Shown here one piece after another: positions 12,545-48,099 of a DNA stretch of 64,000 bases; position 1 is the first letter of the stretch; each line of letters starts with the position of its first letter. The notes below the pieces were generated by a model. That model was not told the DNA's origin, made no database searches, and saw only the letters and a program-made list of their open reading frames with translations. The translations under genes were made by a program, and so were the position numbers. Origin of the DNA: Periplaneta americana (taxonomy: Eukaryota; Arthropoda; Insecta; Blattodea; Blattidae); the NCBI RefSeq assembly GCF_040183065.1, contig NC_091125.1, forward strand, positions 127,685,121 through 127,749,120. Reading direction: 5' to 3'.

Positions 12545-12721
12545 TTAACCAGCATGCCTACAAGTACACTGTCTATTTGTATGAAAGATTTTGATGCAAT
12601 AATTCATAAACAAACGATAGCCCTCGGGACAACTATTAATAATAACCGGACTCTGAATTACGTTGGTGCACTGCACTATTAACATTTGAATTAACACGTA
12701 AAGTAGAAACAAGAGCTTCAT
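12545..12721 (-). CDS. GBP-like secreted peptide precursor A (58 aa)
   Basis: A complete 58-codon frame, ATG at 12721 and TAA at 12547-12545. Residues 1-18 are a strong signal peptide (MKLLFLLYVLIQMLIVQC), so the product should be secreted. A short spacer leads to the family module at residues 31-46: Cys31-Pro-Glu-Gly-Tyr-Arg, then Cys42-Ile-Lys-Ile-Phe. Twelve residues follow, with two extra cysteines (48-58: NRQCTCRHAG region). The spacing C-x10-C and the C-x2-G-Y-R start match the other five genes and resemble insect growth-blocking peptides. It lacks the Gly before the second Cys, so it is a divergent member. The start is supported by a TATA box 49 nt upstream. It is intronless as read. 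Cytokine function is inferred from the motif only; a small antimicrobial or structural peptide is the alternative. Confidence 0.72.
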   Translation of the reverse strand: MKLLFLLYVLIQMLIVQCTNVIQSPVIINSCPEGYRLFMNYCIKIFHTNRQCTCRHAG

Positions 12722-12763
12722 GATGACTGCAACAGAACTGTTTCCAAAATGAAAGAAAAGTAA

Positions 12764-12770
12764 TTATATA
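12764..12770 (-). promoter_or_regulatory. TATA box of gene A
   Basis: TATATAA on the minus strand, 49 nt before the ATG, which predicts a very short 5' leader. Its position supports the start chosen for gene A. Confidence 0.6.
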
Positions 12771-13018
12771 GGCAAAAAGAAACGGCATTACCTTTATAAA
12801 TAATAAATCATGTGTAATATATCATGTTAACTATCACATATTTTTAAATAATGTAACCATCGGTTACTACTTATAAATCATGCACCTATCAGTTATTAAT
12901 AAATCATATAACTGAAAGTTATTAGCAATACTTAAGTCGGACACGATAAGGTATGTGTTCCAGGTTGTGGGGTAAGAACGAAATTTTTAAGTTCGAGGAA
13001 GTACATATACATACAAAT

Positions 13019-13575
13019 GGCTTTTAAGGAACCCGGAGGTTCATTGCCGCCCTCACATAAGCCCGCCAGCAAGATTAATCCAGTCCCTACCATTTAATAC
13101 TAATTGTAATTTATTCTTCATATTATAGTTGTAATCTCCTGGTAGAGGGGCAGAGAAGGTCTGACGGTCTTATCTCTACCAGGTTAAATAAATAAATACT
13201 ACTACTACTACTACTACTAATACTACCATCGTATCCCACCTCCCTCAAATCCATTTCAATGTTCTCCTCTTATCTACGTCTTTGTCTCCCCTAAGGTCTT
13301 TTCCCCTCTAACTAACACTCTATATGCATTTCTGGATTCACACATACGTGCAACATGCCCTGCCCATCTCAAACGTCTGGATTGAATGTTCCTAATTATG
13401 TTAGGTGAAGAATACAACGCGTGCAGTTCTGCGTTGTGTAATTTTCTCCATTCTGCTGTATCTTCGTCCCTCTTATCCCCAAATATTTTCCTAAACACTT
13501 TATTCTCGAAAACCCTTAGCTTCTGTTCCTCTCTCAAAATGACAGTCCAAGTTTTACAACCATACAGAACAACCG
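13019..13575 (-). mobile_element. RTE retrotransposon copy interrupted by a nested insertion
   Basis: The 3' end of the element is recognisable at 13021-13086 and resumes at about 13230 with RVFENKVFRKIFGDKRDE and [20 protein letters not shown] on the minus strand (87-codon frame 13537-13274). The break is caused by the insertion at 13094-13222. No intact polymerase remains. Confidence 0.8.
13094..13222 (+). mobile_element. CR1-like 3'-end insertion inside the RTE copy
   Basis: The sequence contains TAGAGGGGCAGAGAAGG and ACCAGGTTAAATAAATAAAT followed by a (TAC)n tail, the terminal motif also seen at 25466 and 45505. It is flanked by the direct repeat CTACCAT (13087-13093 and 13223-13229), which is the target-site duplication. 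It postdates the host RTE copy. Confidence 0.8.
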
Positions 13576-13616
13576 GTATTATAACATTTATAAATGGGAT
13601 TTTTACTTATTCACTG

Positions 13617-14415
13617 GCTTTTAAGGAACCCGGATGTTCATTGCCACCCTCACATAAGCCCGCCATCGGTCCCTATCCTGAGCAAGATTAATCCAGTCTC
13701 TACTATCATATCCCACCTCCCTAAAATCCATTTTAATATTATCTTCCCATCTACATCTCGGCCTCTCCAAAGGTCTTTTTCCCTCCGGCCTCCCAACTAA
13801 CACTCTATATGCATTTCTGGATTCGCCCATACGTGCTACATGTCCTGCCCATCTCAAACGTCTGGATTTAATGTTCCTAATTATGTCAGGTGAAGAATAC
13901 AATGCGTGCAGCTCTGCGTTGTCCAAGTTTCACAACCATACAGAACAACCGGTAATATAACTGTTTTATAAATTCTAACTTTCAGATTTTTTGACAGAAG
14001 ACTAGATGACAAAAGCGTCTCAACCGAATAATAACAGGCATTTCCCATATTTATTCTGCGTTTAATTTCCTCCCGAGTGCCATTTATATTTGTTACTGTT
14101 GCTCCAAGATATTTGAATTTTTCAACCTCTTCGAAGGATAAATCTCCAATTTTTATAGTTCCATTTCGTACAATATTCTGGTCACGACACATAATCGTAT
14201 ACTTAGTCTTTTCGGGATTTACTTCCAACCCTATCGCTTTACTTGCTTCAAGTAGAATTTCCGCGTTTTCCCTAATCGTTTGTGGATTTTCTCCTAACAT
14301 ATTCACGTCATCCGCATAGACAAGAAGCTGATTTAACCCGTTCAATTGCAAACCCTCTCTGTTATCCTGAACTTTCCTAATGGCATATTCTAGAGCGAAG
14401 TTAAAAAGTAAAGGT
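13617..14415 (-). mobile_element. RTE-clade retrotransposon copy with internal deletion
   Basis: The minus-strand coding remnants 14351-13881 and 13926-13621 include the catalytic motif YADDVNML, then [24 protein letters not shown] and [11 protein letters not shown]. After a deletion at about 13920 the reading is [17 protein letters not shown] and ends in MNIRVP. The deletion removes about 40 residues between the thumb and the RWAGHVARMGES block. This is the only RTE copy here that keeps the YADD palm motif. It is not functional. Confidence 0.85.
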
Positions 14416-14430
14416 CATAGGGATTTTTAC

Positions 14431-14985
14431 AGTTCATCAAAATGAATTTCTCCACGTTTTCCAATTAAAGTCAGTTTTTTAACATTTATATATAATTTTA
14501 AGTTCTTTTCTTCATTTTACAAAATTTTATACATCTTTTTAAAATTGTCTGTGATTAAATTTGCTTTGTTATGTAATTTTTATAGTTGAAGTAGTCTATA
14601 TTTCTAAGTAATAATTCATGTCAACATTTTCTTTACGTGTCGTTTTTGGACTAGTCCATATCCTTCTACAGTGTTCACGTGTTTATATTGGCTGTATCAT
14701 AATTTTTAGTTCATCAAAATGAATTTCTCCACGTTTTCCCGATTAAAGTCAATTCTTAACATTTATATATAGTTTTAGGTTCTTTTCTTCATTTTACAAA
14801 TATTTTTTTAAATCTTTTTAAAATTGTCTGCGGTTAAATTTGCATTGTTACGTAATTTTTATAGTTGAAGTAGTCTATATTTCTAAGTAATAATTCATGT
14901 CAACATTTTCTTTACGGGTAGTTCTTGGACTAGTCCATATCCATTTACAGTGTCCATGTGTTTATAATGGTGTATCATAATCTAT
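14431..14985. repeat. 277-bp tandem duplication
   Basis: Two head-to-tail units begin AGTTCATCAAAATGAATTTC at 14431 and 14708 and stay alike through GGACTAGTCCATATCC to the end. There is no coding content. Confidence 0.85.
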
Positions 14986-14989
14986 CTGC

Positions 14990-46415: not shown

Positions 46416-46599
46416 TTACAGTATAAAATATCTACACGAAATCAAATCTTTAATATCACATAATTATTTAAAGCACTTCCAGGAAGATATACAGTTTTAT
46501 TCTTTCTAACACTGCTTGAAAAGGATTTCATTATAATTTTAAAATAACAACACTACTATTTTAGAAATAAAATTCTTAAATTCTTCTTAAATCCTTGCA

Positions 46600-46760
46600 A
46601 ATTAAGCTTTCAGGAATAACTCCCTGTAAAGTTAATTTGAATAATTTCGAGGGAAAAATTGTTCCGGAGCCGGGTATCGAACCCGGGACCTTTGGTTAAA
46701 CGTACCAACGGTACCAACGCTCTCCCACTGAGCTACCCGGGAACTCTACCCGACACCGAT
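46600..46760 (-). mobile_element. tRNA-like SINE head
   Basis: The minus strand reads GTTCCCGGGTAGCTCAGTGG, then GAGAGCGTTGGTACCGTTGG and TCCCGGGTTCGATACCCGG. It has A- and B-box promoters and a closed T-arm. A duplicated GTTGGTAC disturbs the anticodon arm and the element runs on into AAATTATTC sequence, so it is a SINE rather than a working tRNA gene. Confidence 0.6.
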
Positions 46761-46781
46761 CCACTCTTATATCCTTATTAT

Positions 46782-47285
46782 TAACATAATTTAAATGCAA
46801 ATCAAATTCTAAGCTACTCGTATTAAATTAAGTAAATTCAAACAGATGAGACGACATACTAAGAATAACATAATGTAAATACAAATCAAATTCTAAGCTA
46901 CACGTATTTAATTAAGTAAATTCAAACAGATGAGACGACATACCAAGACTAACATAATTTAAATACAAATCAAATTGTAAGCTACACGTATTTAATTAAG
47001 TAAATTCAAACAGATGAGATGACATACTAAGAATAACATAATTTAAATACAAATCAAATTCTAAGCTACACGTATTTAATTAAGTAAATTCAAACAGATG
47101 AGACGACATACTAAGAATAACATAATTTAAATACAAATCAAATTCTAAGCTACACGTATTTAATTAAGTAAATTCAAATAGATGAGACGACATACTAAGA
47201 ATAACATAATTTAAATACAAATCAAATTCTAAGCTGCACGCATTTAATTAAGTAAATTCAAACAGATGAGACGAAATACTAAGAA
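46782..47285. repeat. 84-bp tandem satellite, six copies
   Basis: Units start at 46782, 46866, 46950, 47034, 47118 and 47202, exactly 84 bp apart, each TAACATAATTTAAATACAAA onward with ATTTAATTAAGTAAATTC and GATGAGACGACATAC. Divergence between units is only a few bases. It sits between genes E and F. Confidence 0.95.
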
Positions 47286-47289
47286 AAAT

Positions 47290-47660
47290 GGAACTCCAAA
47301 CTATAAAATGTACCATTTGTACTGAGTTATATTATGAAATAACAATCTTATGAATAGAAGCTGGTAGAAGAGGGACGCAATTGTAAACGACATGGCCGTT
47401 TTCCTACAAATTCAAATACGGCGTTACAATTAGGTCCCAAATTAGGTGCCTCTTAAAGAAACACAATCAAATGAAAAAAGGTTATTTTTGAACAAAATTA
47501 CTAATTGCGCCCTTTTTTGAGTACCCGATTCAAGTACATCCGAAAATACATTATATTCTTGAAGCTATAATGCGAAGATTAGAAATTAGAACATCAGCCA
47601 AGTACTGTTACGTACAAAGTGGGCAATGTCTAAAATTGCTGATATTATTCTTACTTCTTA
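47290..47660. other. Unannotated stretch
   Basis: No gene or repeat recognised before the (ATT)n run. Confidence 0.35.
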
Positions 47661-47675
47661 CTTTATTGCTGCTAT

Positions 47676-47791
47676 TATTATTATTATTATTATTATTATT
47701 ATTATTATTATTATTATTATTATTATTATCATTATTATTATTATTATTATTATTATTATTATTATTATTATTATTATTATTATTATTATTA
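47676..47791. repeat. (ATT)n microsatellite
   Basis: About 115 bp of near-pure trinucleotide repeat, 87 bp past the stop of gene F and so possibly within its 3' untranslated region. Confidence 0.95.
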
Positions 47792-47877
47792 CAAGGCCTA
47801 TTATTATATCAAATCTCTAAACTTGTTAAAAGAGGTATTGCACATCATGCATTACATTTAAAAGACCACATATTTTT

Positions 47878-48099
47878 CTACTTGCCATTCCCTTTCCTGG
47901 AGGTCATAAACACAGTTCTACATTTTCCATTCATAAACCTTTGACCCGGAGGACAAGATCTGGACGACGCTCGAATAACGTACATCTGATGGAACTCTGG
48001 GAAGACCTGGTCCGGAAGATCTCCGTCATCCTGCCCCACCGACGCCGCTACCAACACACTCACTAACAGGTATTTGCACACAGGTAGCAGGCCCGACAT
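47878..48099 (-). CDS. GBP-like secreted peptide precursor F (73 aa)
   Basis: ATG at 48099, stop TAG at 47880-47878. The signal peptide is residues 1 to about 22 (core VCKYLLVSVLVAASVG). An acidic spacer (DDGDLPDQVFPEF) is followed by SSRSCPPGQRFMNGKCRTVF, residues about 46-65, with cysteines 10 apart. It fits C-x2-G-x5-G-x-C-R, with Arg two positions after the first Gly and Val-Phe after the second Cys as in most of the array. Arg before Ser-Cys could be a cleavage point releasing the cysteine-looped peptide. A short basic tail (TSRKGNGK) ends the protein. It is a single exon. This is the clearest canonical member together with E. The function given is by family analogy. Confidence 0.8.
   Translation of the reverse strand: MSGLLPVCKYLLVSVLVAASVGQDDGDLPDQVFPEFHQMYVIRASSRSCPPGQRFMNGKCRTVFMTSRKGNGK

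Follow-up and report, generated by a model that had tools for sequence, protein, structure and literature searches.

A tandem array of six secreted one-module peptide genes in Periplaneta americana with a module lying, by sequence, between growth-blocking peptides and secapins

A stretch of 64,000 nucleotides from the cockroach Periplaneta americana (NCBI RefSeq assembly GCF_040183065.1, contig NC_091125.1, positions 127,685,121 to 127,749,120 of the forward strand; hereafter the window, with positions counted from its first letter) has been predicted to contain six minus-strand genes, here named A to F, that encode secreted cytokines resembling the growth-blocking peptides (GBP) of the ENF type. 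This locus raises the questions whether the six genes form one family, which known peptides are its nearest kin and what its products might do. A six-frame scan with the pattern C-x2-G-x-R-x(4-8)-C-x2-[VIR]-[FY] returned six module matches, all on the minus strand, and none on the plus strand. In line with the original prediction, all six open reading frames (ORFs) comprise an upstream in-frame methionine followed by a hydrophobic stretch, as judged by a simple hydropathy rule without SignalP, and one module in the last part of the frame. The positions of genes A to F and the number of residues between their cysteines (10, 11, 11, 12, 10 and 10, respectively) were likewise confirmed. Gene D extends beyond the module by a tail of 21 residues, and the end of gene B is uncertain.

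The module was not matched in any of 60 dinucleotide shuffles of the window, and the reversed window sequence yielded no match either to the module or to the published GBP consensus. This looser consensus was matched once across the 60 shuffles, in a frame lacking a leader. Six modules on one strand, compared to none in 60 shuffles, thus indicate that the array is real and far above chance.

The modules are spread over positions 12584 to 47955, with distances between successive modules of 3511, 12147, 3235, 12957 and 3474 bases from A to F. This spacing corresponds to three pairs, with approximately 3.2-3.5 kb within and 12.1-13.0 kb between them, the pairs being about 16 kb apart. Segmental duplication was considered as the source of this arrangement. 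However, a self-comparison of the window, which yielded 95 repeat pairs of at least 60 bases, revealed no repeat pair with an offset of about 16 kb beyond scattered mobile elements. Because no DNA repeat explains the paired spacing, we do not claim a segmental duplication.

Relatedness of the six copies and their nearest kin

Profiles built from five of the module cores retrieved the left-out sixth as the best ORF outside the training set for A (expect value, E, 0.0062), B (1.5e-5), D (0.047), E (9.4e-5) and F (8.6e-5), the result for D being marginal with 0.081 for the next ORF. The pooled ratio of nonsynonymous to synonymous differences (pN/pS) of the module, determined from cores aligned by hand and with synonymous sites near saturation, was 0.50; in 500 codon-order shuffles, the mean was 0.97 and the lowest value 0.83. 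The module evolves as a protein: silent change is saturated and amino-acid change is less.

In addition, the spacers between leader and module had been described as devoid of any similarity, which is not borne out by our analysis. Genes C, D and E have in common the motif [KR]VPL between leader and module, encoded by differing codons and located in C directly after the hydrophobic stretch. A 4-mer common to at least three of the six spacers (with K and R, and E and D, treated as equal) occurred in 0.045% of 20,000 spacer shuffles. Given the motif shared by C, D and E, the spacers are not wholly unlike. Taken together, a tandem family of secreted peptides with one module each is well supported, and the array appears to have arisen by old local duplication of a gene for a secreted precursor with a single C-terminal module.

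To which known peptides is this family closest? The GBP consensus C-x(2)-G-x(4,6)-G-x(1,2)-C-[KR] had been quoted as it is printed in PMC6439351. As predicted, C, E and F fit it exactly and the loop of D is longer by one residue; A and B do not fit. In the module of A the second glycine and the K/R after the last cysteine are absent, and its tail contains two extra cysteines. In Pfam, gene C matched GBP_PSP (PF02425) with E 0.001 and 19.1 bits (cut-off 25), a family for which the other five gave no row, and gene F matched Secapin (PF17521) with E 0.0046 and 17.3 bits (cut-off 25.9). Gene D gave a weak Secapin row (E 0.21, 12.0 bits), and A, B, C and E gave none, so that gene A matches neither family. 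Apart from these rows for C and F, no Pfam row of any of the six proteins has E < 0.01. None of ten shuffles in which the leader, the two cysteines and the glycine were left in place matched GBP_PSP or Secapin; one of them matched an unrelated family with E 0.013, and the Pfam values of C and F are therefore suggestive only. An NCBIfam scan returned nothing, and a search of the PDB with the module profile returned no GBP chain.

By these matches below the cut-off, one copy (C) leans to GBP and another (F) to secapin. The predicted link to GBP/ENF is supported by the Pfam row of C and by the three modules (C, E, F) that fit the consensus, whereas F and weakly D match Secapin instead, so that 'GBP/ENF' names only half of the nearest kin. 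By its sequence, the module is located between GBP and secapin. The GBP core is a disulfide-closed hairpin (PMC6439351), and a hairpin has also been described for secapin-like peptides (PMC11335235). An AlphaFold2 model of gene F, based on seven sequences and with the disulfide not computed, predicts a hairpin with strands at residues 53-56 and 59-62 and a mean predicted local distance difference test score (pLDDT) of 84 over residues 51-60, in a model that is otherwise poor (mean pLDDT 58.6). A beta-hairpin was predicted for the F module only, with low confidence elsewhere.

Like the GBP/ENF/PSP peptides, which include Drosophila GBP1 and GBP2 and the locust GBP, the cockroach copies are secreted precursors with a module near the C-terminus, a putative one-disulfide loop that follows the consensus in three copies (C, E, F), and a predicted hairpin in F. 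GBP-type genes likewise occur as several paralogues in one genome, with five proGBP-like genes in Drosophila (PMC6439351). The cockroach copies differ in that A, B and D deviate from the consensus and in that the cockroach modules carry an extra invariant arginine two residues past the glycine and an aromatic residue four past the last cysteine. Moreover, they have no conserved peptide N-terminus. With the secapins, such as the ant U17/C1 family and TPTX1 of processionary caterpillars, they have in common a putative single disulfide, a hairpin as predicted for F, and a tandem arrangement, and F has the C-P-x-G start and the C-R-x-V end. In contrast to the cockroach copies, most known secapins come from venoms or urticating setae, and to our knowledge cockroaches have no venom.

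Proposed function and alternative readings

We consider it moderately probable that the array encodes GBP/secapin-like hairpin peptides that serve as receptor ligands in the hemolymph. The signal peptide would be removed from the precursor, and proteolysis of the spacer in the hemolymph would free the C-terminal hairpin of roughly 20-40 residues, with the basic residue ahead of VPL in C, D and E as a possible cut site. Each precursor would thus yield a single beta-hairpin of the GBP/secapin type, located at the C-terminus and closed by a disulfide. Under stress, after wounding or upon infection, this hairpin may signal to hemocytes or the fat body in a GBP-like manner. The diverging spacers and loops would allow the copies to differ in release or receptor preference. 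We infer a cytokine function of the six peptides from this anatomy. GBP acts on hemocytes and on the release of insulin-like peptides, and its Drosophila receptor is the G protein-coupled receptor Mthl10 (PMC6439351, PMC4771208).

Several observations argue against a firm assignment to GBP. Only three of the six copies fit the published consensus, and none reaches the Pfam gathering score for GBP_PSP or Secapin. Gene C fails the leave-one-out test, with rank 18, and it fails likewise with the longer alignment. Upstream of the genes, kB sites are not enriched (one in six stretches of 1 kb, with about 1.8 expected), leaving immune induction unsupported. A TATA plus initiator pattern precedes B only (1/6 genes), and a 12-base word common to the regions upstream of both A and C was equalled by 5.75% of 400 random sets and is hence not significant. 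The alternatives considered below overlap with the ligand reading, and the probabilities assigned to them do not sum to one.

It appears rather unlikely that the hairpins are secapin-like defence peptides with a direct action in hemolymph or secretions, for instance on proteases in the manner of an inhibitor or on microbes, instead of receptor ligands. Such a role would accord with the Secapin match of F and weakly of D, and with the description of secapins as 25-residue one-disulfide peptides with protease inhibitor-like and antimicrobial activity (PMC10059942). Likewise, the ant Tetramorium bicarinatum harbors 15 secapin-like genes in tandem, in clusters of 13 plus 2, and bacteria reportedly induce bee secapin in the fat body (PMC10800049). 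A possible role in normal physiology has also been put forward for secapins, which are reported from Hymenoptera, Coleoptera, Diptera and Hemiptera (PMC11335235). However, the best family match of C is GBP_PSP, the Secapin match remains below the cut-off, and a hairpin alone does not distinguish secapin from GBP.

Some copies might be pseudogenes or fragments in a partly decayed array, above all B, through insertion of a repeat, and A, through its eroded motif; we regard this as unlikely. Decay would be consistent with the palindromic repeat that reaches into the end of the B ORF (Table 1), with the absence of the second glycine and K/R in A, and with the outcome of the protein searches made, which did not extend to the newer RefSeq annotation described in PMC12774602 and returned a record for D only and none for A, B, C, E and F. 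Nevertheless, all six frames are open and contain leader and module, and the ends of the genes offer another view of the repeat in B. Strong 5' splice donors are located 60, 6, 88 and 4 bases downstream of the module in A, B, D and E, respectively, and none in C and F. A strong donor occurs in 5.8% of 90-base stretches of the minus strand, which gives a binomial chance of 0.00015 for four of six genes, a value obtained with a donor weight matrix and with the 90-base stretch and the threshold chosen after the sites had been seen. The donors of A and D lie past the stop codon, whereas those of B (AAG/GTATGT, near 16089) and E (a possible GAA/GTGAGT at 44429, within the last codons) are in frame, so that the last residues read in both genes may be intronic. 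The coding exon of B probably ends near 16089, and the tails in the original prediction were corrected for B and perhaps E, where they may run into an intron. Given the strong donor 6 nucleotides past the B module, the palindromic repeat would fall inside the intron. The 3' exons of the genes were not found.

Convergence on the C-x2-G motif by other cysteine-poor secreted proteins (of cuticle, saliva or reproductive tract, or like EGF fragments) is considered very unlikely. In its favor are the short length of the module (16-18 residues), the chance-level rows that link A to models of CC, cEGF and jagged-type EGF (E 0.04 to 0.27), and the resemblance between the GBP motif and part of EGF (PMC6439351). 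Against it, the genes are shown to be one family by their tandem order, their leaders and [KR]VPL, and GBP_PSP and Secapin account for the only Pfam E-values under 0.01.

The protein record of gene D and other elements of the window

A search with the alignment of the six proteins led to one protein among 162 candidates, the Periplaneta americana hypothetical protein ANN_05305. Between VELRY and the C-terminal end, gene D and this protein are identical at 93 of 94 positions, whereas in place of the first 18 residues of ANN_05305 the window has a normal leader. The single mismatch suggests that window and record represent different assemblies or alleles of P. americana, or that one stems from a very near relative. 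The beginning of ANN_05305, AGLCEGGNEPPGSLKA, or close variants of it recur at four sites (11542-11566, 13042-13066, 13663 and 40720-40744, minus strand) and adjoin ORFs that resemble pieces of retroelements. The first exon of ANN_05305 is therefore probably a mobile-element artefact, and these four repeats are a sign that mobile-element pieces were annotated as first exons in the annotation from which ANN_05305 derives. The further elements observed in the window are listed with the six genes in Table 1.

Table 1. Genes of the array and other features, in window coordinates
Feature	Position	Strand	Remarks
Gene A ORF	12545-12721	minus	58 amino acids; module 12584-12631, CPEGYRLFMNYCIKIF
Gene B ORF as read	16023-16283	minus	86 amino acids; module 16095-16145
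Gene C ORF	28224-28397	minus	57 amino acids; module 28242-28292
Gene D ORF	31414-31749	minus	111 amino acids; module 31477-31530; acidic C-terminal tail
Gene E ORF	44422-44652	minus	76 amino acids; module 44434-44481
Gene F ORF	47878-48099	minus	73 amino acids; module 47908-47955
ORF with DUF4817 / Mos1-type helix-turn-helix domain	4130-4474	plus	mariner-like transposase fragment
ORF with reverse transcriptase and RNase H domains	16931-19036	plus	701 amino acids; nearly intact ORF of a retroelement without long terminal repeats (non-LTR); between B and C
Palindromic repeats resembling miniature inverted-repeat transposable elements	15824-16066, 39961-40178, 41535-41749, 57737-58011		about 215-275 bases; 82-94% match to own reverse complement
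tRNA-Asn gene (anticodon GTT)	46661-46742	minus	between E and F; ARAGORN and Rfam
84-base tandem repeat, six copies	46782-47285		close to the tRNA-Asn gene

Precedents and implications

The array had been proposed to represent a notable and possibly undescribed expansion. In its broad kind it has precedent in the 15-gene ant array (PMC10800049), and multiple GBP-like genes per genome are already known from the five Drosophila genes, with GBP also reported from locusts (PMC6439351). A cockroach array of six genes, with copies leaning towards two families that carry separate names, appears to be new. Among the matches listed, which did not cover subscription papers, there was no paper on a cockroach GBP, and of the papers searched none names both 'secapin' and 'growth-blocking peptide'. 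Likewise, the available part of the one paper found to pair secapin with another related term draws no link between GBP and secapin.

It is possible, and suggested here tentatively, that GBP-type cytokines and secapins represent branches of a single old family of insect peptides, in which case the cockroach array would be a pre-venom cluster of hemolymph signals and the venom secapins would have been recruited later. If the ligand reading is true, a large polyneopteran genome would harbor an expanded and largely unannotated set of GBP/secapin-like ligands. This set would be directly testable with regard to the number of GBP-type signals employed by an insect and the receptors required for them, and it may provide a link between immune cytokines and a family of venom peptides.
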